Shown piece by piece: positions 2,841 to 20,060 of a stretch of DNA of 64,000 bases. The stretch spans positions 124,001 through 188,000 of the forward strand of contig JAFIGT010000030.1 in the NCBI GenBank assembly GCA_017849585.1, written 5' to 3'. Every line of letters starts with the position of its first letter. Within the stretch, counting starts at the first letter, position 1. Below the pieces are notes generated by a model, which was not told the DNA's origin, made no database searches, and saw only the letters and a list, made by a program, of their open reading frames with translations. The translations under genes were made by a program, and so were the position numbers. The DNA comes from Verrucomicrobium sp. (GTDB lineage: Bacteria; Verrucomicrobiota; Verrucomicrobiia; Methylacidiphilales; UBA1321).

Positions 2841-3482
2841 ATGATGCGCGTTACCACCCTATCTAAAAAAGGATTTTCGCTCATTGAGTTGCTTGTGGTT
2901 ATAGCCGTAGTCGCTCTTTTAACCTCAGTCAGCATGGTGGCCGTCGGGGGCAATCAAGCGCGTAAGTTGGCGTCGAACGGTAACCTGATCGCTGACCTGT
3001 CTAAGCAAGCGCGGCAAAACTCAATTAGTAAGGGAGTATTGACAGCGCTGGTCCTATGCAAGACCTATCCAAATAATCAGGAATTGAATAATCGCCTACT
3101 AGTTCTCATGGAGTTGTCACCCGATAGCACGACTTGGAGGCAACTCACCAAATGGCAAATTCTGCCCCAGGGAGGTGTTGTTGATTCCAGCCAAAGCGAC
3201 AGCTTTATTTCTCAAGTGCCGAATGTAGAAACCCCCATCAGCAATCTCAAATATTTGGGTGCTACCGTCACGGATATTGCGTTTCAGGTTTTTTTGCCGG
3301 ATGGCAGTTTGGCCACTAAAAAGCAGTCATCCAGCGGATCAGTAATCATGCAGCCTCCGGTATTGAGTTTGTCCCAGGGAAATATTAATTCGCGCGGAGA
3401 TTTGGTCAAAACATCCTCCGTCAATTATTATAAAATAACGTTTAACTTGCACACCGGAATGACGAAAATCGAGTGTCCATGA
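2841..3482 (+). CDS. prepilin-type protein, Verru_Chthon cassette protein D-like
   Basis: This 213-residue protein begins with a class III signal: KKG|FSLIELLVVIAVVALL, with cleavage after Gly11 and the conserved Glu at +5 of the mature protein. The hydrophobic helix (12-35) would anchor it in the inner membrane before assembly. The rest is a Ser/Gln-rich globular domain without recognised catalytic motifs. Its position first in a four-gene run of three prepilin-like proteins and one large GspK/PilX-like protein matches the Verru_Chthon cassette described from Verrucomicrobium and Chthoniobacter, where it would be protein D. The cassette's function is unknown. The next gene overlaps its stop. 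Confidence 0.8.
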   Translation: MMRVTTLSKKGFSLIELLVVIAVVALLTSVSMVAVGGNQARKLASNGNLIADLSKQARQNSISKGVLTALVLCKTYPNNQELNNRLLVLMELSPDSTTWRQLTKWQILPQGGVVDSSQSDSFISQVPNVETPISNLKYLGATVTDIAFQVFLPDGSLATKKQSSSGSVIMQPPVLSLSQGNINSRGDLVKTSSVNYYKITFNLHTGMTKIECP

Positions 3483-3898
3483 GCCTTTGGTCCAATCAAA
3501 AACTAGGGTTTAGTTTGGTCGAAATCGTCATGGCGTTGGGTCTTGTCAGCTTTTGTCTTGTGGCTCTTCTGGGTTTATTCAGCCTCGGGATTAAAACAAG
3601 CAAACAATCGGCCGAGGAAACAAATTTGGCAGCCATGTCATCGGAAATTATAACCGAATTGAGAGCCAGGACATCCAGTACGACGATTGCACTGAACCAA
3701 AAGTATTATTTCGACAATCAGGGCGAACGCACCAACGCCATCGGTGCGTATTATGAATGTCATTTAATCACCCAGACAGATACCTCATTTAGCGCAAATC
3801 TGATTCGCGGAACATTGACCTTTACCTGGCCGGCCCATCTCGCAGCAGGCAAACGCCCAAATACCAATACGTTTTATTCCACATTTCCACATCGTTAG
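3479..3898 (+). CDS. prepilin-type protein, Verru_Chthon cassette protein B-like
   Basis: The protein has 139 residues from the ATG at 3479, which overlaps the preceding TGA by 4 nt; a GTG at 3473 is the alternative. The leader ends LG|FSLVEIVMALGLVSF, again with Glu at +5, so it should be processed by a prepilin peptidase. The body resembles PilV/GspI-type minor pseudopilins in length and placement. The order and sizes fit Verru_Chthon protein B. It is probably cotranscribed and translationally coupled with its upstream neighbour. Confidence 0.78.
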   Translation: MSLWSNQKLGFSLVEIVMALGLVSFCLVALLGLFSLGIKTSKQSAEETNLAAMSSEIITELRARTSSTTIALNQKYYFDNQGERTNAIGAYYECHLITQTDTSFSANLIRGTLTFTWPAHLAAGKRPNTNTFYSTFPHR

Positions 3899-3916
3899 CG
3901 TGCTCGCCATCAGGAT

Positions 3917-4723
3917 ATGAAAACGCCACAGACGCGCACCTTTGAGTCGGCATTTAGTTTGGTGGAAATGCTTGTAGCCACTGCCATTTTATCTTTCTTA
4001 CTTCTAATCCTGATCAGTCTCACCAGCCAGTCCAGTCAAGTGTGGTCAACGGGAACGAAGCAAGGTGAACACCGTCAGAAAGCGCGATCGACGCTTGATT
4101 TCATCGGGCGGGAAATGCGATTGGCCACCGTGGCAGTGGACGGTGGTGGTTCACTTCGATTTGTTATCTATAACCAGACAAATCCGGGCATTAGCACGCT
4201 CAACCCCCACGCCGTTTTTTGGCTGGCACCAGTGGCGACGGAAACGTCCATGGGCGATTTGGCGGAAGTCGGCTATTTCATCCGCTGGGACACCGAACTG
4301 AAGCAATCCAATTTGTGCCGGATGCTCGTCAATCCCAGTGACACCGCTCACTATCTTATCTACACCTCACCTGAAAATTGGATTACAGATGCACTCTTGC
4401 TGCAAGTGGCTCCAGGAACCAAGGCCAGTGGTTATCAAGGTCTCTTTTTGGAAAACGTGCTTGGATTATGGGTGAAAGCTTATCGAGCTGATGGAACGGA
4501 TTATGGAACCGACTCCAGTAGCTCCTCCAACCGAAACAAGCTGCCAGCCTATGTCGATATTTCTCTCGTATTTCTGGATTCGATGACAGCGAAGCGGCTA
4601 CAAAATCCAATCCCTCCTAAAGAAAGCCAGTCACCGGAAGATTATATCGCCGCCCTGCCAATCAGCCTCAAATCTGGAGCCACCCGGGCAAGCCTTCGAG
4701 TGATTCTCGACAATAATCGGTAA
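3917..4723 (+). CDS. prepilin-type protein, Verru_Chthon cassette protein C-like
   Basis: This 268-residue protein has the prepilin signal SA|FSLVEMLVATAILSFLLL at residues 11-30; Ala replaces Gly before the cut site, while Glu at +5 is kept. The following LDFIGREMRLATV resembles PilW/GspJ minor pseudopilins. It ends 2 nt before the large fourth gene. By order it is protein C of the Verru_Chthon cassette. Whether it forms a tip complex with its neighbours is an inference from type II secretion and type IV pilus systems. Confidence 0.78.
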   Translation: MKTPQTRTFESAFSLVEMLVATAILSFLLLILISLTSQSSQVWSTGTKQGEHRQKARSTLDFIGREMRLATVAVDGGGSLRFVIYNQTNPGISTLNPHAVFWLAPVATETSMGDLAEVGYFIRWDTELKQSNLCRMLVNPSDTAHYLIYTSPENWITDALLLQVAPGTKASGYQGLFLENVLGLWVKAYRADGTDYGTDSSSSSNRNKLPAYVDISLVFLDSMTAKRLQNPIPPKESQSPEDYIAALPISLKSGATRASLRVILDNNR

Positions 4724-4725
4724 AC

Positions 4726-7410
4726 ATGAAACATGCATTACTTAAGCGTACCGAGGCGCGTGGCGCAGCGCTGATCATGGCTCTCTCCTTGATCTCGCTC
4801 ATGACCATTCTATTAGTCGGTTTCCTAGCCAGCATGCAGATCGACCGGGCCGCATCCCGATCCCATATGGACGGCCAGCAGGCGCAGTGGTATGCACAGG
4901 TTGGCGTTGATCTTTCCATCGCAAAACTAAAGAGCCTCAGCTCATCCACCGCTGTGTGGGCCAGCATGCCGGGCCGGATAACCGTGGTTGGTACCGGTGG
5001 AAATCCCTCCACCAATATCGATCTTTCCTCAGGGTCCGCGCGAGGTGAAACAGACTCGAAGGTGGTGGTCAACTTGAATCCGAGGACATTGCTTTTTTCC
5101 TCAAAGGGTCTGATCGCCAAATCTGGAGAAAACATTTCGGTGCGGTGGATTTATCTCAGACGCGACGGTTCCTTTGAAGCCAATACTCCGCCCACCTACA
5201 ACCAAGCCAATCCCGTAGTGGGTCGTTTTGCCTTTTGGGCGGACGATGCGAGCACTCGGGTCAATATAAACACCGCCGCAAGTCGAATCGGAAATACCAA
5301 TGCTCTTTCTCATCCCTCGCGGGTGGATATGACGGCATTTCTAGGTACCCCAGCCATTGAGAGCATTCAGGTCGCCCGCAATGTTCGTCCATTCAATTCC
5401 TTGTTTGAGGCGAGACGAATAGTTAACACCGACGCCTTTAACACTAATCAATTTGCTCTCACCCACTTCAATCACTCTCCGCTGCCATCAGTGAATATGT
5501 TCGGCGAGCCTCGCATACTCTTGACTACTCAAAAAGGTGTAGCCGAAAAAATCTATGGCACCGGAACCACCAACTACCTCGATATTCTCACCGTGCCCGA
5601 TACAGATCCAGGTTCGCCGAGTAATCTGGATTCAGTCAAAGTGGAAAAAATTGTCAATCGAATTGCCAATTATCTGCGCCGGACCGACTGGCCGATTTTG
5701 CCTGGGAAAAGTTTCGCATCCAAGTATACGCCATTCACGACAAGCCCAACCTATAATAATAATTATGTGGCACAGATCGCCATCAACATTCTCGATTATG
5801 TGCGGTGCGCAGAATCTACTCTGAGTGCCGTAGCGGCCACCAAAGGTCGATTGGATCCCGTGTCCGGCAATTTTGTCTACGGAACCACTGGACTAGCGGT
5901 GAATCCCGGAGCTTCCGGTGTGTCTCCAGCTCCATGGTGGAATAGCAATTTCCCCTCGACTATGATGGGACTGTCCCGTGGCCCAAGGATCACGGAATTT
6001 CGCTGTACGATTACCAGTACAAATCCATGGGCTGATGGCAGTAAATGGGATTGGACAGCCAAGTATGAAGTGGAGGTTACGTTGCCGGAGAATAGCGGCC
6101 TCTCTTCAATCGACTTATCCACCCTTACCATTTCAGCCGAGAGCATGGACCCTACTGGCATGGTGCAGGGCTGGAGCAATCGTAAAACCATTCCAATAAC
6201 CGGCGCCATGTGCTCAGGCGGTGGCTCTACGCTTGCCGCAGGCAATTACAAAACGATTACGGTCACTGGTATCCTTCCCACGAATCAGAAAACGCCCACT
6301 CCCACAACTGTCTATGCCATGGCCTCACTCGAACCCACGATTGATACAACCGCCGTGATCTCGGGTTTTGGCAATAATACAGCCCCCATTTACTGGCAAA
6401 CATTCACCCTAGTGGCAGGAAATACAGTCAATTCCTGCGCCCGAAAATATACTGATGTAATGCTCCCAAGTTATCCCGAAGCTTGGACGACTCAAGGGCC
6501 AAGCTCATTCGATGCTACAAATCCCGGAGCCATTACCTCGGTTTCCGCGACACCCTCTCAAGATAAGGATGGCAGCGGAAATGTAACATCGGTGAGCACA
6601 CGACTCCCTGCCCCCAAAGGCAGCGCATCCAATTTACTGGGTATCGTAAAGTCGGTTGGGGAATTGGGATTCATCCACACGGGTAGCGTTGTAGCGCATA
6701 TGCATTCGACTTCCACAAGCGGCATTCTCTATGGCACGATTGTGCCTTACCGCACCTTACGATTGCGCCCTCAAGATGCTACTTCAGGGGAATTGCCTGA
6801 CTGGGCCATTCTTGATCTATTTGACGCCCCTGGCCTCCCCCAATCATCTACCTCCACTGTCCTACGACCTGGCAATGCCAGTGTAGGCGGGCAGATCAAT
6901 GTTAATGGCGGGCTGGTGACATTTATCGACCAGAATGGAAACCCTACCCTCACGCGCTCGCTACCAATGCAATGCGCCCTGACTGGTGCTGGAAATAAAA
7001 CCGCAACGGTCAGCAGCGTGATCCCTTCCACATCCGTCTCTACTCTCGCCAATGCCATCAATAGCTATGCCTTTACCAATGATAGTCTAGCTACCAATGG
7101 AAAACGCTATGGAACCGGGGTCCTCACGAATGTATTCATCTCACCCTGGCAAATCTGCGAGATCAAAGGCGTGGCAGACTCTGGCGAAGAGAGCGAAGAG
7201 GTTGTGCGGCACGTCGGCAGCGTAGGTACTGTTCGAGGCAACGTCTTTAGCATCTATAGCATTGGCCAGTCCATCAAGCAGGATAGCAATGGTGGAGTCT
7301 CTATACTCGGAGAACGGCGCATGGAAACTATCGTTGAACGCTATCAAGACACTCCTAACAGTTCCGCCACCTTCCGCACCATTTTTTCACGCGACTTAAA
7401 ATCACTATAG
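4726..7410 (+). CDS. large GspK/PilX-like protein, Verru_Chthon cassette protein A-like
   Basis: The last and largest cassette member has 894 residues. The N-terminus carries basic residues and one hydrophobic helix (14-36, GAALIMALSLISLMTILLV), like PilX/GspK proteins whose leader is not fully canonical. FAFWADDASTRVNIN (about 168-182) resembles the GspK segment. The remainder is a long Ser/Thr/Asn-rich exported region. In Verru_Chthon cassettes protein A is the large member, so the identification rests on order plus this N-terminus. Base composition is visibly more A+T-rich than dapB-panB. No terminator is seen in the 120 nt before the convergent hydrolase gene. Confidence 0.8.
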   Translation: MKHALLKRTEARGAALIMALSLISLMTILLVGFLASMQIDRAASRSHMDGQQAQWYAQVGVDLSIAKLKSLSSSTAVWASMPGRITVVGTGGNPSTNIDLSSGSARGETDSKVVVNLNPRTLLFSSKGLIAKSGENISVRWIYLRRDGSFEANTPPTYNQANPVVGRFAFWADDASTRVNINTAASRIGNTNALSHPSRVDMTAFLGTPAIESIQVARNVRPFNSLFEARRIVNTDAFNTNQFALTHFNHSPLPSVNMFGEPRILLTTQKGVAEKIYGTGTTNYLDILTVPDTDPGSPSNLDSVKVEKIVNRIANYLRRTDWPILPGKSFASKYTPFTTSPTYNNNYVAQIAINILDYVRCAESTLSAVAATKGRLDPVSGNFVYGTTGLAVNPGASGVSPAPWWNSNFPSTMMGLSRGPRITEFRCTITSTNPWADGSKWDWTAKYEVEVTLPENSGLSSIDLSTLTISAESMDPTGMVQGWSNRKTIPITGAMCSGGGSTLAAGNYKTITVTGILPTNQKTPTPTTVYAMASLEPTIDTTAVISGFGNNTAPIYWQTFTLVAGNTVNSCARKYTDVMLPSYPEAWTTQGPSSFDATNPGAITSVSATPSQDKDGSGNVTSVSTRLPAPKGSASNLLGIVKSVGELGFIHTGSVVAHMHSTSTSGILYGTIVPYRTLRLRPQDATSGELPDWAILDLFDAPGLPQSSTSTVLRPGNASVGGQINVNGGLVTFIDQNGNPTLTRSLPMQCALTGAGNKTATVSSVIPSTSVSTLANAINSYAFTNDSLATNGKRYGTGVLTNVFISPWQICEIKGVADSGEESEEVVRHVGSVGTVRGNVFSIYSIGQSIKQDSNGGVSILGERRMETIVERYQDTPNSSATFRTIFSRDLKSL

Positions 7411-7530: not shown

Positions 7531-10410
7531 CTATTCTCCAGCAGAGCGAACTACTAACTCAAAATATGAAGCTGGCCCCGCTTTCAACGCACCCGTATCA
7601 ACACTCACTTCAATGGCCTCGCTTCCCCGATGGAGGTCCAGTTCTTCCAGGCGCTTCCCATTGGCAGACAAGGCAAAGAGTCGAAGAGTTGATGCATGCT
7701 GTGTTTGCAATTGCAATTTAGCTTTCACTACACGCGCCAAAACCTCCGGACCTCCGAGACTAACCAGTTTACGACGGGTATCGTCTTCAAAAGTCATATT
7801 TTCATTCAGCGCATCACTCACAAGAATCAGCAATAAACGTGTACTTTCATGAATAGATTCCTTGGTCAGTGAACCGACAAAGCAAGTCAAAGAAGAAGAT
7901 CCGAGATTTTCCACTTGCAATCGACTTAAATTAACCGGCTTGGAACAGGCCGGCAAAGATACTCCCTCACTATATTTCGTGACGACGCGCAGCTGACTCT
8001 CCTTTTTGCTCAATATTAGCTCGCCGGTATCACTCTGATAAACCCCTCTTTCCTGATCGGTCTGATTGTTCTCAGGAATAATTTTCTTTTTTTTGAGATC
8101 GTCTACCAAACCGCCAAAAGACTGGCGCGCGTTTGCTTCATCACTTACCTCCTGCGCGCCCTGTCCCGTGGAAACAGAGGATCCTGTCTCAGGTTTGACA
8201 ACATAATCTATCACCTGGGGAGCGCGTGGTGCAGCTCCATCGCGACTTGGCAATTTCACCCCAATCCCCGCAATCAGCGCCAATTCAGTTATCGATCCGG
8301 GCAGGGCATTCTGTGGCCTGAGTTTATCGAAAACGGTCTGTGGATCTAGTTCTACAGCGATGGCATGTGGAGATGCCGTTACATCCCCACGGCGATATAG
8401 CATTACTGACATGTACTCCGCTGCTCGTAGTGGTGGATCACGCAAAATTCGGAATGGTACGATCGGTTCGCTCGGTTTGATTCCTATGGGATTGGAGAAT
8501 TGCGCAATCATCTGCCACCCCTGCAATGCCGCATAAGCCGGAATGGAAAGACCAGCCTCATGTCGCCATGGCTGCCAGAAGCTGTGCCCCCATTCTGAGC
8601 ATACGAAAGGAGCTCCCCAGTGCCGCAAGCCAGCCATGCTGCGAAAGTAACTCAATCCGGTCTTTGTCGCGCTGTCGCCTCGAATTCTGGATCCAGCTCG
8701 GGTAAAATCCGTCGGATGATCGTGATAGGCGTGTGAGTCGATCAGCGGAAGCACATCCCTGGTGAGAGTGGATTGCATCGAGTACTCGTTATTGTAGTCC
8801 AGAATGAGAGATTTCACGCCAATCTCGCGCAAATGGCTTGAGAGCAGCAGAAAGGTCTCTTGTTCAAGATCGACAAAAAATCGCTGTAAGTCCCTCGCCG
8901 CTGGCGTAGCCTCGCTCACTGCAGGAAGTGCGACGAGATCAAAGCCTTCTCCGCCTTGCTTGCCCTCATCTGCAGAGACAAACCCAGCCCCAGCTCCCCA
9001 TGCCTTGCGCAATGCTTCCATGCTTCCATAACGTGACCTCAGCCATTTGCGAAATGGAATCACAAGATCAGGATCCCGGCTGTTCGGCAGGTACATCAAA
9101 AAATTCAAGCCGGACTCATTACGCGTCTGGACGATGGCAACCTGCGGATCATCTTTAAGTGCCATACCGGTGTAGGGATTGACGTGTTCGAAGAGTTGGG
9201 TCACAGCTTTCTTCCAGTGCTCTTGTGCCTTTGTGTCATAATAGATACGTGACTTGAGCTTTAGCGCGCGCGCTTTGGCCGACCAGGGTTCCGGCACGGC
9301 ATAGTAGGCCGCCCATGATGTCGAGGCATCTATGTAAAGATAGATTCCGTTTTTTTTCAGTTCCGCCGCAAATCGATCCCATTGATCGAGGCGTTCCGGA
9401 TTGATCGCGAGATCCTGTACACTTCCCACCATCAAAAAATGATCCAGAAAATGGCACCGAAGCATATTATAGCCTGCCCTCTTGATTTGCTGCGCATACG
9501 AGGCAACCACTTCCGGCGCTTGCAACTTGGTGGTCATCACCTCGGAGTAACAGAGAAAGCGAACGGGCATGGCTGGATTGCCTTGAAAGGCAAGCTTACC
9601 TTGCTCATTGACGATCACCGGTCCACTAGAGCCTGCCTCTTTGCCCGGCTCAAAGAGCGCAGACATATCTAGCGCACTCCCTTCAACCACCGTCCGGTCT
9701 GTAAGGTCGACAAGTCTCCAGTCCGCGCTGACCTGAGCCTTCCACTTTTCTGGACTCGGTAGCGGAACGTCATGATCGGAAATTGTCGCCGCAACAATGA
9801 TCCAACTAGCATTTTCCGCTCGTGCAAAGCGAATTGAAACGGGATGCCCCATAAATTTAGGCAATGAGAACTTTGAAAAATAAAGGCCTACGGTATGGAA
9901 TCCATACGTGATTTTGTACGCAATGGCTCCGTTTTCCTTGGCGGAAAGACTCCTCCAGTCGGCCAGTTCCCGACCATTCATGATCGAGTAATCCATCTTC
10001 TTTCCTGAGTCAAAATCAACCATGATCTGACCGATTTTTTGATGTTCATCCACTCCGTCTAACGGGGCAGTATGCAACAGATAGAGCGTACTGCCGCGTT
10101 CAAGCTTTTTAGCATCTACGAAAAGACACGCTTCGCGCAGTGTTGTCGAACTGGTGGAGTCAAAAACCAGGAGTTGGCCCTCTCCTTTGACATTTCCATC
10201 CAGAATTCGAAAGCCGATTCCGGCAAAGCGAAACTCTCCGGTTACGAGATCCTTTAGGTCGATAGGCGCTGTATCGACCAACAGTTCAGCAAAAGACCTA
10301 TTCGCTCTCCCCTCAAAGTTGAGACATACCTCCGCCCCCTCAAGCGCCCCCGAGATAAAGAGAAACTGCAACAGAATCACACAGCATCGCGCCCGCCGCA
10401 ATACACTCAT
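7531..10410 (-). CDS. secreted clan GH-A-like glycoside hydrolase
   Basis: The 959-residue protein starts with a signal peptide (about 1-26, ILLQFLFISGALEGA). An N-terminal beta-sandwich-like region (30-215) is followed by a TIM-barrel region (about 285-690). TRNES near 430-433 fits the Asn-Glu acid/base of clan GH-A, and CSEWGH has a candidate nucleophile at Glu606; DSHAYHDHP (558-566) is a likely substrate-site strand. It aligns by eye with residues 250-1133 of the paralogue at 31138-34539, which shares NPYTG and DxHxYxDHP. The ATG directly follows the in-frame TAG of the upstream gene. Substrate unknown; the neighbouring sulfatase and mannosidase suggest a complex glycan. Confidence 0.72.
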   Translation of the reverse strand: MSVLRRARCCVILLQFLFISGALEGAEVCLNFEGRANRSFAELLVDTAPIDLKDLVTGEFRFAGIGFRILDGNVKGEGQLLVFDSTSSTTLREACLFVDAKKLERGSTLYLLHTAPLDGVDEHQKIGQIMVDFDSGKKMDYSIMNGRELADWRSLSAKENGAIAYKITYGFHTVGLYFSKFSLPKFMGHPVSIRFARAENASWIIVAATISDHDVPLPSPEKWKAQVSADWRLVDLTDRTVVEGSALDMSALFEPGKEAGSSGPVIVNEQGKLAFQGNPAMPVRFLCYSEVMTTKLQAPEVVASYAQQIKRAGYNMLRCHFLDHFLMVGSVQDLAINPERLDQWDRFAAELKKNGIYLYIDASTSWAAYYAVPEPWSAKARALKLKSRIYYDTKAQEHWKKAVTQLFEHVNPYTGMALKDDPQVAIVQTRNESGLNFLMYLPNSRDPDLVIPFRKWLRSRYGSMEALRKAWGAGAGFVSADEGKQGGEGFDLVALPAVSEATPAARDLQRFFVDLEQETFLLLSSHLREIGVKSLILDYNNEYSMQSTLTRDVLPLIDSHAYHDHPTDFTRAGSRIRGDSATKTGLSYFRSMAGLRHWGAPFVCSEWGHSFWQPWRHEAGLSIPAYAALQGWQMIAQFSNPIGIKPSEPIVPFRILRDPPLRAAEYMSVMLYRRGDVTASPHAIAVELDPQTVFDKLRPQNALPGSITELALIAGIGVKLPSRDGAAPRAPQVIDYVVKPETGSSVSTGQGAQEVSDEANARQSFGGLVDDLKKKKIIPENNQTDQERGVYQSDTGELILSKKESQLRVVTKYSEGVSLPACSKPVNLSRLQVENLGSSSLTCFVGSLTKESIHESTRLLLILVSDALNENMTFEDDTRRKLVSLGGPEVLARVVKAKLQLQTQHASTLRLFALSANGKRLEELDLHRGSEAIEVSVDTGALKAGPASYFELVVRSAGE

Positions 10411-11294: not shown

Positions 11295-12068
11295 CTATTG
11301 ACCGCTCCAGAAGCTGGCACTGGCCTGACTGACTGGTGGAATATCGGTATACGGCATCAAGGAAACATGCCCATCAAAGAATAAGATGTTGCACTTCTTG
11401 CTATGCGGCAGAAGCCCGTAGAAGTTGTGGAAAAGAAAACGGTTGCTTGGATTCTCATTCTGCTCCAGCACCATCGCCGTCGCCGAGGAGTTAGCGATTT
11501 GCATGGAACGAATCGCCGTTATGGCACTGTTATTGACCGGACCAGTATTTAGCGCGTAAGAAAAGCGATTGCCGGCTGATGAGTTCGCATTAGGCGTTTG
11601 TATCTCCTGAAACTTCCTGACTGATTGACGTTTTGTTGCCGGGCAGTGAAACATATTTCGATCCTCCCCGCTGTTACCTTGCAGATCGTTGTCAGGATAT
11701 CTGAAGGACGAAGCGGAATAGCCGACATAAGTCCAAATCGTATAGCTCCAATGCTTGCATTGGGTGCCTGCATATTTGGGATCTGTATTCTCCGATGCTG
11801 GGAAAACACCCCCGTTTTCAGCAGCGTAGGTTAATAAAGCCACTCCAATTTTCCGGAGATTCGAGGTACAGATTGCCATATCAGACTGCGCTTGAGCATT
11901 CCGCAACGCAGGAAACAAGAGAGCCGTAATTACAGCCATGATCATGATCGTTACGCTCAGCTCGATTACAGTAAATGCGCGCTCTTGGAGTCTCCATTTT
12001 GACAGAGGATCGCAACCACAATCATGATTACAACTCCATGAATCCCTGTAGATGTCTGGTAGTATCAT
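11295..12068 (-). CDS. pseudopilin with prepilin leader and H-X9-DG domain
   Basis: A prepilin-like segment RA|FTVIELSVTIMIMAVITALL lies about 28 residues after the chosen ATG at 12068; GTG 12095 and ATG 12089 are alternatives. The C-terminal part has LPHSKKCNILFFDGHVSLMP, where His is followed by nine residues and then Asp-Gly. This is the processing-associated H-X9-DG motif common in Planctomycetes and Verrucomicrobia, where such genes are highly multiplied. TSNLRKIGVALLTYAAENGGVFP is also typical. The product (257 residues) should be a surface or periplasmic pseudopilin of unknown role. It lies 57-85 nt downstream of the sulfatase start-stop unit on the same strand and may share its transcript. 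Confidence 0.75.
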   Translation of the reverse strand: MILPDIYRDSWSCNHDCGCDPLSKWRLQERAFTVIELSVTIMIMAVITALLFPALRNAQAQSDMAICTSNLRKIGVALLTYAAENGGVFPASENTDPKYAGTQCKHWSYTIWTYVGYSASSFRYPDNDLQGNSGEDRNMFHCPATKRQSVRKFQEIQTPNANSSAGNRFSYALNTGPVNNSAITAIRSMQIANSSATAMVLEQNENPSNRFLFHNFYGLLPHSKKCNILFFDGHVSLMPYTDIPPVSQASASFWSGQ

Positions 12069-12152
12069 ATGCGCAAATGACCTCATCATTATCACATCCC
12101 AGTTGACCGGCCATAATTCAGCTAAAAATCAACCATTCATTTCTCCGCTGAT

Positions 12153-13850
12153 TCATATAGATGAACAAGCGATCTGGTTTTGTGGGTGACGCTCAGATGC
12201 ATTTGCATTGACGGCCGACGGCGGAGGTGAACAGTAGAAGATGCGCCTGAACGAATCCATATCGCCTCCACGCTCCTCCCAATGGCGCCACCATTCGGAA
12301 CGCTCGAGATCTTCGAGTTGAACACGTGCATCAGCACCCAAAGGCTCGTTCTTGATTACCTTATCAAATTCTCTCTTGAGTTGATCGATGTGAGTTGAAG
12401 AGTAGGAGCCCGGAAACGCCGGCCACTGCGATAGAGACCATCTCGGCACGACCATTCGATGTGCCTCGATATTTGTACGAAAGGGGATGGCAATAAATTC
12501 TCCATTGCAGACAGCTCCTTTCAATCCCCAAACAAGCTCATATTGTAGAGCGTGTTCACGCAATTTCCGATATGCGTGTTGAACTTCCTCGGCGGGATTA
12601 TTGATCAAGTTGCACAATTCATAAGGATCATGGCTTAAATCAAATAATGAATCCAGGCCACCACCAAACCAATGGATGTACTTCCATTGGTCGTTGCGAA
12701 TCATGATCCAACGAGGTGCTTGCGACTCGGTAAGATCGCCAAATTCGCAGTACTGAATAGAACGATCCTTAAGACTGTGGAGCCTGAGCAGCGAATCCCC
12801 GGGAAATCCATGCTCGAGATTATGCCGGCACGCCACCTCCGAAACATTAATGTCCGCCGCATCAAGAGCCGTCGGCAGGATATCATTAAGATCGGCAAAT
12901 GCGTCTCGATTTGTTCCCGGTTGAATCCGTCCAGGAAAACGGACAATCAAAGGCACTCGCACGGAGCCTTCGTAAGGAAGTTGTTTTTGCATGAGGCCAA
13001 GATCGCCAAGCATCTCTCCGTGATCACTGCAATAAATGACAAGTGTATTGTCCGCCAATCCTAGCTGGTCCAGTTTATCGAGCACCATCCCAATACCTTT
13101 GTCCACCAAACTGATGGCGGCATAGTAAAGCTCGCGAAAGCGACGCGCCTCCGGACGCTCCTCACCTTCGAGCCCGCGTATTTCAGGCAGTGCAACGCCG
13201 GAATAGAGATCAGCAAATGTATCAGGAACGTTGGCGGGTGGATGAGGCGCAATCCATCTGGCCCATGCAAACCAGGGTCGGTTCTGATTGGACTCGATGA
13301 AGCGGCATGTTTCACGAGCCACCCAGGTCGATCCATGATGCTTCTCCGGCATGATGCTGCGTTGAGGCAGTTGATAGCCAAGCACGCGAGATCCATGTAT
13401 TTGCAATAACTGATCCAACCCGACGGAACGTAAATACTGCAGGTACTCATCATCTTCAACATGCGTTGGAATTTCTTCCATTAGTCTCATCGTATTGAAC
13501 CCGTGATGAGCGCGTACGGGGTAGAAATGCATTTTTCCGATGGCCGCAGTAGTATAGCCATTCGCCCCCAAAATCCGAGGTAAAGTAGGCACGGTAAGCG
13601 GTAAAGGGCGGTGCGCGTTATGGGGCATGCCATGGTAGCGCGCAGGAAGGCCCGTCAGAATATTATGCCGCGCCGAGACACAGATCGGATTGGGTGTGTA
13701 AGCTCGACGCCACACGCACCCCTCGTTCACGAGGCGGTCTAAATTCGGAGTCAGCATAAAAGGGGCATTGACCGCTCCTATAGTGTCGTAGCGCTGCTGA
13801 TCCGCTGTCAGCAAAAGAATATTGGGACGAGATGGGGTCGAAATTTTCAT
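12153..13850 (-). CDS. type I sulfatase
   Basis: The enzyme hydrolyses sulfate esters, probably on a carbohydrate. With the ATG at 13850 it has 565 residues, beginning just before RPNILLLTADQQRYD, whose Asp contributes to the calcium site. NPICVSARHNILTG carries the formylglycine motif C-x-S-x-R at Cys57, so an anaerobic-type or FGE maturase is needed. YCSDHGEMLGDLG supplies further metal ligands. An upstream start at 13952 is open, but it would overlap the inferred -35 element. No clear signal peptide is seen at the chosen start, so export is uncertain. It is controlled by box 2, divergently from lacI. Confidence 0.9.
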   Translation of the reverse strand: MKISTPSRPNILLLTADQQRYDTIGAVNAPFMLTPNLDRLVNEGCVWRRAYTPNPICVSARHNILTGLPARYHGMPHNAHRPLPLTVPTLPRILGANGYTTAAIGKMHFYPVRAHHGFNTMRLMEEIPTHVEDDEYLQYLRSVGLDQLLQIHGSRVLGYQLPQRSIMPEKHHGSTWVARETCRFIESNQNRPWFAWARWIAPHPPANVPDTFADLYSGVALPEIRGLEGEERPEARRFRELYYAAISLVDKGIGMVLDKLDQLGLADNTLVIYCSDHGEMLGDLGLMQKQLPYEGSVRVPLIVRFPGRIQPGTNRDAFADLNDILPTALDAADINVSEVACRHNLEHGFPGDSLLRLHSLKDRSIQYCEFGDLTESQAPRWIMIRNDQWKYIHWFGGGLDSLFDLSHDPYELCNLINNPAEEVQHAYRKLREHALQYELVWGLKGAVCNGEFIAIPFRTNIEAHRMVVPRWSLSQWPAFPGSYSSTHIDQLKREFDKVIKNEPLGADARVQLEDLERSEWWRHWEERGGDMDSFRRIFYCSPPPSAVNANASERHPQNQIACSSI

Positions 13851-13908
13851 AAAAAGAGCTCTGGTACAACACTCATTGGAGTACTCTCGCAATAAGCTGC
13901 CTCTATTG

Positions 13909-13928
13909 AAATCAGACCGTTCTGATTT
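13909..13928 (-). promoter_or_regulatory. inverted repeat in the sulfatase 5' leader
   Basis: AAATCAGA and TCTGATTT form a perfect 8-bp inverted repeat around CCGT. It lies between the inferred sulfatase promoter and the ATG at 13850. It could be an operator or an mRNA hairpin; nothing in the sequence decides between them. Confidence 0.4.
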
Positions 13929-13975
13929 GCAGAAGAAGCATCGACCAACCAAAATAAATCACAAGACGTCCCAAT

Positions 13976-13989: not shown

Positions 13990-14031
13990 CGCCATTGACC
14001 CCGCCATCCCGGCGTGTTATTAAGTCTCGAG

Positions 14032-15018
14032 ATGGCCCAAGCTGGTTCCCAACGCCCTACCCTAATCGATGTGGCCCGAGCGGCTGGAGTCAGCCACATG
14101 ACCGTATCTCGCGTCGTGCGCGGTCTACACGCTGTATCCCCGCAAACAGTAGAACGCGTGAAGCTCGCCATTAATCAATTGGGCTATCGGCCTGATCCCG
14201 CACTCTCTGCCCTTGCTTCGTACCGCACCAATGGGAAGGCACACAATCATAGCAGTACGCTGGCCTTTCTGGACTGCGATGGAAGTGAGCACTCCCAGAA
14301 AATATACATGGCCGCACAGCGGGAAGGTCAATTACTCGGATATGCTGTCGAACGCTTTTCTATAGTTCCCGAATACCAGAAACAACAACGCGTGAGCCGG
14401 GTCTTGTTCAATCGGGGAATTCAAGGTTTGTTGTTTGGTCCCACCATCTTGCCTTGGAAAGGTCTGGATGCTTGGGATTGGACTCACTTTGCCCCTGTCT
14501 CTTTGGGGGCAATCGCTCACAATCCGCATATGCCCAATGTCGCGATGGATCACTTTCACGGCGCCATGACCGGCTGCCATTATTTGCGGGAATTAGGCTG
14601 TCGCCGAATAGGGCTCGTACTGGCAGACTGGTTGATGCCGCGAACAGAGTATCGGTGGCTTGGCGGATACATTGCTGGACTGCGAGGGAAAGGTAAACTT
14701 CGCCTCCACACGCCAGACGATCTCAAAGCGCTGAAGCGTTGGGTCATCCAAGAAAAGATTGATGGAGTCCTGACCATCCATCCAGAAATATATCCCCTCC
14801 TGCGCCCATTGGGAGTCCAAGTTGGATTTCTAAACAGCGTGAGCGCTGTTCCCGGCGCTCCCCACCTGCACTTTGACCCTAGCTGGATTGGCGAAGAAGC
14901 CGTTCGATTGGTTCACCACCTGCTACTACGTCGCGAATTTGGCCTCGATCAAAAATCCAAAATGATGGCGTTGCAAGGTACGTGGAATTCTCGTTCCGCA
15001 GATCTGGCTGACCGTTAA
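14032..15018 (+). CDS. LacI-family transcriptional regulator
   Basis: The 328-residue protein has an N-terminal LacI helix-turn-helix, TLIDVARAAGVSHMTVSRVV, followed by the hinge region with GYRPDPALSALASYR, a form often seen in Verrucomicrobia. The remainder fits a periplasmic-binding-protein-like effector domain, so the ligand is probably a sugar. The ATG at 14032 is chosen; GTG at 14014 is in frame. It lies in the middle of the five-box set with one box directly upstream, which makes it the leading candidate to bind the boxes and to regulate itself. The AraC protein at 20061-20921 is the alternative. Confidence 0.92.
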   Translation: MAQAGSQRPTLIDVARAAGVSHMTVSRVVRGLHAVSPQTVERVKLAINQLGYRPDPALSALASYRTNGKAHNHSSTLAFLDCDGSEHSQKIYMAAQREGQLLGYAVERFSIVPEYQKQQRVSRVLFNRGIQGLLFGPTILPWKGLDAWDWTHFAPVSLGAIAHNPHMPNVAMDHFHGAMTGCHYLRELGCRRIGLVLADWLMPRTEYRWLGGYIAGLRGKGKLRLHTPDDLKALKRWVIQEKIDGVLTIHPEIYPLLRPLGVQVGFLNSVSAVPGAPHLHFDPSWIGEEAVRLVHHLLLRREFGLDQKSKMMALQGTWNSRSADLADR

Positions 15019-18310: not shown

Positions 18311-18327
18311 ACCTCAGGGGCTGAGGT
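18311..18327. repeat. hairpin around the MFS stop codon
   Basis: ACCTCAG and CTGAGGT form a perfect 7-bp stem with a GGG loop that contains the MFS stop codon. It lies between convergent genes, but neither side has a T-run, so a role as terminator is uncertain. Confidence 0.4.
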
Positions 18328-19729
18328 GCCTAGGTAACGGCGCCTCATAGTGATCCGGGCCGCCGTGGTTCTTCCATGCGCGATAGAGTGCCAACATGGG
18401 AATGGTCGCCAGCATGTAAAAAAAGGCGCTCCAGAGGAAGACCATTCGATAATTACTGTGATTTAAATCCATAAAGACGCCAATCAGATAATTTCCCACA
18501 AATAGACCGCCACACCCGAAGACATTCACCCCGGCAGAAAACTGACCGAAATATTTTTGCGGAAAAAGCTGCATGGTAACCGTCATTGATCCGAGCCCCC
18601 ATCCAACAAATGGGATGGAAATCAAAAGGGAATAAATCATCCAAGTCAGTTTATCGTGGACGAGAAAATAGGCGCAAAGCGCTCCGAACAACAAAAGGCC
18701 AATACTGCAGAACACGACGCGCATCGGAGTAAACCGCTCGCAAAGCCAACCAACCGGTGCGAAGAGAAAAGCGCTCGCGATTTGAGCGTAGGCCCAAAGA
18801 TGCCCCATGTCCGCCATCGATAAACCCAGGGTCTTACTCGCATAGAGAGTCGAAAAGGAAGTCGCGCTCATCCCGGCCATCAGGACAAGCAGATAGACGA
18901 TAAAATAATTGCGGTAAAGTGGTACCGATAGACAATCTCGGAAATAAGTGCCAAATCGGCTAAGAAAATTGTCCCGCGCATTTCCTGTCTCTGGATCAGG
19001 ATACTGCCCCTCCCTCACCTTCCAACACATTGTCATGAAGACCACCATATAGAACCCACCCATCAGCAGGAATGTAGTCCGGCGATAGCTCATTATAACC
19101 GGAAACACATAAAACAAAAAAATCACCGAAGCCACCGTTCCCACGACTCGAAACCAGGAAAGAAATCGAGCCATAAAAACCTGCGGTACGACGTCCCGCA
19201 ACAGCCAGTTATACGCCCCCACCAGCACCATGTTGAAAAAGTGAAAGGAAACGGCAAAAACACAAATCAGCGACAGCAGAAGCGTCGACTGAGTAAGCCA
19301 TGGAGCGATTTCTGCCGTGACATAGCGATGACACCAAGCAGCAATCTCTGGAGAAAAACCCACAGCCATCAGAGACAGCGTTGTTAATGGAGTAACCACA
19401 AGCAAAAATGGGATGCGCCGCCCCAGTTTGCTCCGAAAGCGATCGCTCCATTGGCTAATATTCGGCAGAAAAAGCACATTGACCAACCCGGCGAGACCAC
19501 CAGTCACGATGCCGATTAGCGTATTGGACGCATGCAAACTTTCGAGATAGATCGGCATGAATCTTCCGTAAATAGCCTCAAAAAAAGTGAAAGCAAAATC
19601 ACCCCACAAAAGCCATCCAAAGAGGATATACAACGACCGTTGGTCGTACCTCAACGTGCCTATCGTATAGAATTTTGAAACGGAGGACTCGGATGGAATA
19701 GAAATGGTTGCAACTTGATTGGCATTCAT
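18314..19729 (-). CDS. MFS transporter, probably sugar or glycoside uptake
   Basis: The 471-residue protein has about 12 hydrophobic segments. The cytoplasmic loop QWSDRFRSKLGRRIPFLL after the second or third helix matches the sugar-transporter-like branch of the major facilitator superfamily (GPH/SLC45-like signature). The ATG at 19729 is chosen over a TTG at 19747. Box 4 sits 169 nt upstream with TTGTGC and GTATCT, predicting a leader of about 120 nt. Because it shares the box with secreted hydrolase, sulfatase and a TIM-barrel protein, import of released oligosaccharide is the natural inference. The substrate cannot be read from the sequence. Confidence 0.82.
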   Translation of the reverse strand: MNANQVATISIPSESSVSKFYTIGTLRYDQRSLYILFGWLLWGDFAFTFFEAIYGRFMPIYLESLHASNTLIGIVTGGLAGLVNVLFLPNISQWSDRFRSKLGRRIPFLLVVTPLTTLSLMAVGFSPEIAAWCHRYVTAEIAPWLTQSTLLLSLICVFAVSFHFFNMVLVGAYNWLLRDVVPQVFMARFLSWFRVVGTVASVIFLFYVFPVIMSYRRTTFLLMGGFYMVVFMTMCWKVREGQYPDPETGNARDNFLSRFGTYFRDCLSVPLYRNYFIVYLLVLMAGMSATSFSTLYASKTLGLSMADMGHLWAYAQIASAFLFAPVGWLCERFTPMRVVFCSIGLLLFGALCAYFLVHDKLTWMIYSLLISIPFVGWGLGSMTVTMQLFPQKYFGQFSAGVNVFGCGGLFVGNYLIGVFMDLNHSNYRMVFLWSAFFYMLATIPMLALYRAWKNHGGPDHYEAPLPRHLSP

Positions 19730-20060
19730 AATGCATCGAATCCTCAAATGCGAATACTCCTCGCTCGCCGGGGCCCGCCATTAACTTGATACGCTACCCA
19801 ACGTCAATTTCAGCAGGTCTCTATCTTGGAGCGATTTTTCAAGCATTCGTAGACACAGATACTGACCCCTTGGCGAAATGGCACAATTCTCAGATTGTGT
19901 TCACATTAACAATTCATCCCAATCTCCTTATCGACTCAGCATTATCAAATGCAATGAGACCAAAGCATGAGCCTGATTTTACGAGAGGCGAATTGTCCAT
20001 CTGGCGGATTACCGCCGTGGTATTGGTCGTGCTTTCTCTATTAGCCTTTTGGCCTGGTTG
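19730..20060. other. 331-nt region between the MFS and AraC genes
   Basis: It contains box 4 and the MFS promoter (19857-19911). The right part includes a possible 39-codon membrane ORF starting at 19954. No RNA gene or terminator is seen. Confidence 0.5.
19898..19911 (-). promoter_or_regulatory. regulon box 4 upstream of the MFS transporter
   Basis: The coding strand reads TGTTAATGTGAACA, then 11 nt, TTGTGC (19886-19881), 18 nt, and GTATCT (19862-19857). The same phase as in the other four copies makes a chance match unlikely. Confidence 0.7.

Follow-up and report, generated by a model that had tools for sequence, protein, structure and literature searches.

Why would a bacterium keep four prepilin-type genes among its genes for sugar use, with no secretion motor beside them? 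We addressed this question for a cassette at positions 2,841 to 7,410 of a 64,000-nucleotide stretch of DNA from Verrucomicrobium sp. (GTDB lineage Verrucomicrobiota; Verrucomicrobiia; Methylacidiphilales; UBA1321), hereafter the window, which covers positions 124,001 to 188,000 of contig JAFIGT010000030.1 in assembly GCA_017849585.1 (C11:124001-188000 in our numbering of that genome, hereafter the window genome). A first-pass annotation, made from the sequence, had described the four genes as a complete cassette of the Verru_Chthon A-D type. Our results point to a probable answer: the cassette would be a complete set of orphan minor pseudopilins, specific to its island, that provides the tip of a type IV filament machine encoded elsewhere and shared.

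Four prepilin-type genes in one operon

The four genes are all on the plus strand and tightly packed, as had been noted before:

2841..3482, + strand: cassette protein D, GspH/FimU-like minor pseudopilin, 213 amino acids (aa), Glu5 present; best match TIGR02596
3473..3898, + strand: cassette protein B, GspI/PilV-like minor pseudopilin, 141 aa, Glu5 present; best match TIGR02598
3917..4723, + strand: cassette protein C, GspJ/PilW-like minor pseudopilin, 268 aa, Glu5 present; TIGR02599 and AlphaFold2 model
4726..7410, + strand: cassette protein A, giant GspK/PilX-like protein, 894 aa, without Glu5, beta-sandwich insert at about residues 405-593; TIGR02600 and model

According to the list of open reading frames, D and B overlap by 10 nucleotides, and gaps of 18 and 2 nucleotides separate B from C and C from A. 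The proteins are, as the first-pass annotation had it, three short prepilins and one large GspK/PilX-like protein: the type IV prepilin motif of D, B, and C has a glutamate at position +5 (Glu5), and A has an N-terminus of the prepilin kind but no Glu5. The earlier suggestion that the 894-residue member might be a tip protein fits these features, A being a GspK-like tip candidate that lacks Glu5. The gene order D-B-C-A is that of gspH-I-J-K.

In NCBIfam, each of the four adjacent genes is best matched by one model of the Verru_Chthon cassette, namely D by TIGR02596 (44.3 bits, for a curated cut-off of 70), B by TIGR02598 (44.9 bits, cut-off 51.4), C by TIGR02599 (49.5 bits, cut-off 256.5), and A by TIGR02600 (202.5 bits, cut-off 332.3). 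Because the four models were matched at E-values of 1e-11 to 1e-59 in a single operon-like run, chance is a poor explanation and the four-gene prepilin-type cassette is real. All four scores are nonetheless below the curated cut-offs, an outcome that the first-pass annotation had itself named as speaking against its assignment, and simple membership in the Verru_Chthon families is thus ruled out. What stands of that assignment is that every protein has the expected model as its best match; the scores and the gene order, which differs from that of the canonical copies in the same genome, do not agree with it. Hence, we use the label only in the sense of a sister group: by sequence, the window cassette is a sister clade or near relative of the canonical one. 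Both have the same four kinds of protein. They differ in order (canonical B-C-A-D or B-C-D-A, D-B-C-A in the window) and in protein A, which is shorter in the window and belongs to a separate, fully supported clade of 18 of the 78 A proteins compared. The NCBIfam equivalog cut-offs of type II secretion were missed as well (GspH 28.8 for 80, GspI 14.7 for 44.35, T2SS_GspK 37 for 130), and the GspK of the window genome is itself under the T2SS_GspK cut-off (68.5 for 130).

Predicted folds of proteins C and A

The AlphaFold2 model of C, made from a 13-sequence alignment, has a predicted local distance difference test score (pLDDT) of 70.5. All eight Foldseek matches in the PDB at E <= 1e-3 are chains of the EpsI:EpsJ heterodimer or the Thermus pilin TTHA1219. 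With VIA-align, the ten best of the 50 listed rows are GspJ, XcpW, EpsJ, or TTHA1219, with Z-scores of 11.9-13.3, and the next row falls to 4.4; the alignment with 5vtm_W has a Z-score of 13.3 and superposes 146 residues at 3.1 Å. On this model, C is a GspJ-type minor pseudopilin. A search of PDB sequences with the profile of C returned weak prepilin matches only, and the same search with the profile of A returned none.

For A, VIA-align ranked GspK (3ci0_K) first, with a Z-score of 8.7 and 110 residues superposed at 2.4 Å, in a model of low pLDDT. The GspK/XcpX chains 9a1f_T and 6utu_F followed with Z-scores of 7.9 and 7.4. All three alignments draw on the beginning as well as the end of the 894-residue model, as one would expect if a large insert interrupted a GspK core. 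In the model, this insert would consist of a helical part (about residues 200-363) and a beta-sandwich (about 405-593). The sandwich is the least conserved region of the protein, with a mean pairwise identity of 0.24 among 18 sequences, against 0.29-0.50 elsewhere. Less firmly than for C, the model therefore suggests that A is a GspK-type minor pseudopilin with a large insert. Foldseek listed for A only non-pilin beta-sandwiches, at E >= 0.07; likenesses of the insert to GH2, CBM21, and archaellin are at noise level and we do not claim them.

The predicted GspJ-type fold of C and the putative GspK-type fold of A lead to the reading of the cassette as an orphan tip set, in which D would be the GspH-type, B the GspI-type, C the GspJ-type, and A the giant GspK-type component. 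Together they would probably make a tip or priming complex without filament body or motor.

Ten cassettes in one genome

The window genome is a 4.79-Mb draft in 43 contigs. Searching it with TIGR02600 revealed ten cassette places, and an independent search with TIGR02598 found the identical ten, which supplies the copy number that the first-pass annotation had proposed to count. Four of them are canonical, with A over the cut-off (contigs C25, C37, and two on C2), and six, including that of the window, are below it (C8, C11, C13, C14, C20, and C32). The six divergent cassettes all have the order D-B-C-A. The canonical ones are arranged as B-C-A-D (two), B-C-D-A (one), and B-C-A with no D gene found (one, at C2:97308-102084, our locus L027 5308-10084; the G148 counterpart, L109, likewise has none). 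Reading through all ten, we found that A is the only protein without Glu5. A looser scan for Glu5 in 78 A proteins flagged ten, mostly downstream of the helix, and is not clean.

To place the window cassette among its relatives, we built a midpoint-rooted FastTree phylogeny of A with 78 rows, 10 from the window genome and 68 from other loci. Two of the initial 80, L112 and L113, are duplicates of L037 and L044 and were left out of the tree; they are still included in the counts of 60 stretches and of adjacent genes given below. The A protein of the window is in a clade of 18 rows with a support of 100, separate from the canonical clade of 56 rows. Its nearest row (L036, UBA1321) is 40% identical. 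The copies on C8 and C14 form a third clade as a lone pair. The A proteins vary in length from 843 to 1621 aa. Two cassettes with an A of about 1,600 aa (L117 in G126:C202 and L118 in G124:C114) adjoin a gene whose C-terminus resembles an L,D-transpeptidase-like gene (function by eye) near the locus with a PilB pair and PilC, described below, in the window genome, G078, and G120.

Across the phylum, an even sample gave 3 of 115 genomes with a match at E <= 1e-12. Within the order, 24 of 62 genomes carry cassettes, and none were found in the families f2 (13 genomes) and f39 (21 genomes). All 24 named loci found with the A family of the window are from Verrucomicrobia or its subgroups, including a Verrucomicrobium and Chthoniobacter flavus, whose locus (L041) is a relative of the window cassette type. 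Cassette counts in other genomes are lower bounds, as only the best first-look candidates were scored.

Candidate engines elsewhere in the genome

The whole contig that contains the window, C11, has no match to T2SSE, T2SSF, or secretin models, in line with the earlier remark that the secretion ATPase, platform, and secretin genes are absent here. No other gsp genes adjoin the window cassette. The single complete gsp cluster of the genome is on contig C7, with E, F, G, H, I, K, and a secretin, to which L and M can be added by eye; its G is the only GspG over the cut-off in the genome. Adjoining it on the opposite strand is a locus with two PilB/GspE-class ATPases and PilC. A further locus, on C43 (L034 8692-13732), has two tandem secretins beside PilM-like and PilN/O-like genes. 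This layout resembles that of Akkermansia Amuc_1098-1102, for which the model NF042912 exists. One more type IV-pilus-like cluster, at a contig end (L030, C3:114000-130801), includes ATPase, platform, and secretin genes of its own and resembles a conjugative pilus or that of a mobile element.

Which of these engines is kept together with cassettes? A strong GspG (E < 1e-20) is found in 18 of the 24 cassette genomes. It was not detected in G120, G124, G125, G126, and G142, and the sixth exception, G123, has only a 33-residue match. The PilB pair is present in all eight other cassette genomes searched, including G120 and G123-G126, making nine with the window genome. It was not found in the one cassette-free genome searched, G132. 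In G120, G123, G125, and G126 there is no third strong GspE-class ATPase besides the pair. The type II secretion system (T2SS) as an obligatory engine was thus rejected, given the five cassette genomes without a detected GspG and the four without a third ATPase, although these absences are provisional because the genomes are 77-95% complete. As it is retained even where GspG was not detected, the PilB pair with PilC is, from gene content, a better candidate engine than the T2SS. The first-pass annotation had held that the cassette must use machinery encoded elsewhere or act as a separate fibre. Engines elsewhere do exist; the statement was too strong in its form and can be narrowed by the retention of this locus.

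The surrounding saccharide island

The cassette is the first part of a block of about 20 kb (2841-23573) in which the G+C content at third codon positions (GC3) of the genes is 0.49-0.63. It is 0.74-0.77 in the three outermost core genes outside the block (dapB-, panB-, and galE-like, named by eye) and intermediate in the two genes that directly border it (0.64 and 0.66); for everything else in the window, the median is 0.71. The block is probably a horizontally gained saccharide island, to judge from its composition and genes, and since the low GC3 is common to the cassette and the glycan genes, they look co-inherited. The cassette had been described as lying beside a glycan island; it is inside it. 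The other features of the block are:

7531..10410, - strand: secreted glycoside-hydrolase-like protein (GH42/GH5-like), 959 aa, PF02449 at E 2.8e-6; first gene of the adjoining island
11295..12095, - strand: lone prepilin with a DUF1559 (SBP_bac_10) match in the Pfam scan, 266 aa, in the low-GC3 block
12153..13952, - strand: sulfatase, 599 aa, PF00884 at E 1.5e-51
14014..15018, + strand: LacI-family regulator, 334 aa
15094..16854, - strand: PEP-CTERM protein of beta-repeat appearance, 586 aa, TIGR02595 at 18.9 bits, over the cut-off
18314..19747, - strand: MFS sugar-transporter-like protein, 477 aa, PF07690 and PF13347
20061..21164, - strand: AraC-family regulator, 367 aa
20949..23573, + strand: GH2/beta-mannosidase-like enzyme, 874 aa, last gene of the low-GC3 block

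Single DUF1559 prepilins such as the one listed may be another set of island-linked pseudopilins. Pfam scans of 12 different neighbour proteins in the window revealed no PilY1-type domain.

To see whether relatives have similar surroundings, we scanned with Pfam three genes per cassette in 29 of 60 cassette stretches, those from genomes that also provided controls, together with 80 control genes. LacI domains were found in 8 of 87 flanking genes, against at most 1 of 80 controls (Fisher P 0.023, post hoc), and Peripla_BP_3 in 9 of 87 (Fisher P 0.013, post hoc), both P values taking 1/80 as the upper bound of the controls. PATR, CBM9, cellulase, GH28, GH16, and sialate-esterase domains recur in the flanks, and no such family has more than one member among the control genes. 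These counts replace those of our regular expressions for LacI and AraC, which had poor recall (AraC in 0 of 100 stretches).

PEP-CTERM genes near cassettes

We then compared the 60 cassette stretches of relatives with 40 control stretches, placed by hand on long contigs of six genomes. The stretches are not independent, which the P values ignore. A PEP-CTERM gene is present in 26 of the 60 cassette stretches and in 1 of the 40 controls. Restricting the comparison to matched genomes gave 14 of 29 against 1 of 40 (Fisher P 5.6e-6), and the complete genome G078 alone gave 6 of 7 against 1 of 20. In the set of 80 cassette loci (78 distinct), a PEP-CTERM gene directly adjoins the cassette 12 times, with no intervening gene and a gap below 1 kb, and 10 of these 12 genes are on the same strand. 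One more, in C. flavus, overlaps gene D by 4 nucleotides (by eye). An exosortase was found in 23 of the 24 cassette genomes. In the window genome, 7 of the 10 cassettes are within 8 kb of a PEP-CTERM gene, for 3.0 expected (P 0.009), with P values of 0.25 (3 of 10), 0.056, and 0.018 at 3, 5, and 10 kb.

This association invites the explanation that the cassette is a dedicated PEP-CTERM secretion tip, replacing GspH-K in a type II system so that the exosortase-processed beta-helix neighbour crosses the outer membrane. The numbers above speak for it, and there is a precedent in the cited parts of two reports, where a T2SS takes proteins with C-terminal sorting tags distinct from PEP-CTERM, namely GlyGly-CTERM and MYXO-CTERM, across the outer membrane (PMC3237569, PMC11980579). 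We nevertheless find it unlikely. In 34 of the 60 cassette stretches there is no PEP-CTERM gene within about 8 kb, proximity in the window genome is weak at 3 kb, and the PEP-CTERM gene of the window is 7.7 kb from the cassette on the other strand. The most telling case is genome G147 (the DISCRIMINATING case), which has at least eight cassettes but no exosortase match, and whose 8 cassette and 13 control stretches are free of PEP-CTERM genes. Because of it, PEP-CTERM export as the general role of cassettes was ruled out; the coupling, judged on these gene neighbourhoods, is frequent but not required. Around the G147 cassettes there are still genes of the sugar type; in one case, by eye, the gene for a LacI-type regulator immediately follows one for a secreted enzyme-like protein. 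The common denominator of cassettes appears, from their neighbours, to be the sugar island. Upstream of one G147 cassette (L079 911-5653, G147:C3) we observed, by eye, a gene for a 1,581-aa protein with a filamentous-haemagglutinin-like N-terminus.

What the cassette may be

Two further explanations dispense with a shared engine or with a special role. The four proteins could make a short surface fibre or piston by themselves, without a shared major pilin or pseudopilin and with A as the bulk product. The absence of a major pilin gene from the cassette and the very large size of A (in all 78 sequences) would fit, but the cassette has the composition, order, and folds of tip subunits, whose usual place is on top of a GspG/PilA filament, and no motor is encoded beside the cassette, so that we hold this improbable. 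More improbable still is that the four are type II minor pseudopilins of the ordinary kind that have moved out of their gsp cluster. Although the GspJ-type and GspK-type folds would be expected in that case too, the gsp cluster of the window genome already has H, I, and K, the genome would contain ten extra sets, A is far larger than its GspK (894 against 365 aa), and cassettes occur in genomes without a detectable GspG.

The reading of the cassette as a tip set on a shared machine has its own difficulties. The model of A, from an 18-sequence alignment, is weak (mean pLDDT 61.6), it has no Foldseek match at E <= 1e-3, and Z-scores of 7-8 in VIA-align are common noise by the tool's own note. 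A glycan-binding fold is not established for the insert. Comparisons by hhalign with the gsp proteins of the window genome scored 95.3% over 115 columns for B and GspI, 92.8% over the N-terminal 66 columns for D and GspH, and 90.9% over 57 columns for A and GspK, all without cross-control, and the last two alignments span only the N-terminal helix common to all prepilins. The LacI association in relatives was found post hoc, and a LacI link in the window genome was rejected for lack of significance (within 8 kb in 5 of 10 cassettes, P 0.07). Finally, the engine is not settled, since a strong GspG accompanies cassettes in most of the genomes but not in the remaining six. All these points weigh against the tip-set reading, which we still consider the probable one.

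If the cassette is such a tip set, the sugar-responsive regulators of the island would switch it on, and a prepilin peptidase would cleave its proteins, which would then assemble into a tip with A outermost. Of the engines encoded away from the cassette, the PilB-PilB-PilC locus, together with a PilQ-type secretin, would most probably drive the tip, with the type II system as the alternative. Through the outer membrane, the tip would then present the giant A and its additional beta-sandwich to the polysaccharide of the island, either to hold this polymer or to push out proteins of the island. For this last step, contact or adhesion, at which the first-pass annotation had already hinted, is a tentative proposal, and export of island or PEP-CTERM proteins an almost equally tentative one; precedents in the literature make both plausible.

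Relation to known systems

Among the closest known arrangements is the type II tip GspH-I-J-K (XcpU-V-W-X), in which, according to the cited part of one report, the four minor pseudopilins form a tip with GspK uppermost and a proposed role in substrate recognition (PMC6211770). The cassette has the same order and Glu5 pattern, and the same predicted fold in C and possibly in the core of A. It differs by having no gspC-G, L, or M nearby, by its many copies per genome, and by an A of about 2.5 times the length of the GspK of the window genome, with the extra sandwich. Several tip sets for one engine are described in Myxococcus xanthus, where three FimU-PilV-PilW-PilX-PilY1 clusters are served by one major pilin and one machine, and where the X protein also lacks Glu5 (PMC7541494). 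Each of those three sets includes a PilY1, unlike the scanned neighbourhood of the window cassette, and the cited part of the report does not place them in glycan islands. For Streptococcus sanguinis, the minor pilins described include a complex that binds glycans and a bimodular pilin with an adhesive role (PMC9934059, PMC8179133). Within the phylum, Verruconatronum alginivorum is described as over-expressing on alginate a single PulG-like pseudopilin, with 67 homologues in the genome that have spread by gene transfer (PMC13274419). Here too, a polysaccharide-linked pseudopilin of Verrucomicrobiota has many homologues; the difference is between a single PulG-like gene there and a four-gene tip set here. 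Multiple minor-pilin sets per engine and polysaccharide-linked single pseudopilins in the phylum are thus already in print. For the Verru_Chthon cassettes there are family names, and we found no paper mentioning them in the literature searched; nor did we find there a description of them as GspH-I-J-K tip sets, of two types of cassette in one genome, or of the association with PEP-CTERM genes and glycan islands.

Implications for glycan use in Verrucomicrobiota

If read as orphan GspH-I-J-K tip sets that number up to ten per genome and are associated with glycan islands and PEP-CTERM genes, the cassettes are open to a direct functional test. They provide a handle on how PEP-CTERM proteins cross the outer membrane, and on the way in which Verrucomicrobiota make large secreted enzymes meet polysaccharides, to our knowledge without a Sus system. 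The position of the window cassette inside a block of genes for sugar degradation suggests that the bacterium may mount a separate tip for every sugar that it degrades. Taken further, and speculatively, the glycan islands of Verrucomicrobiota would carry interchangeable pilus tips: one engine and about ten tip sets, each co-inherited and co-regulated with its saccharide island, so that a polysaccharide would re-arm the machine with the matching giant GspK-type tip, which would then grip the polymer or deliver the surface proteins of the island. If this were true, interchangeable tips would be a structural counterpart of the surface system SusC/SusD of Bacteroidota, with which they would have no parts in common.

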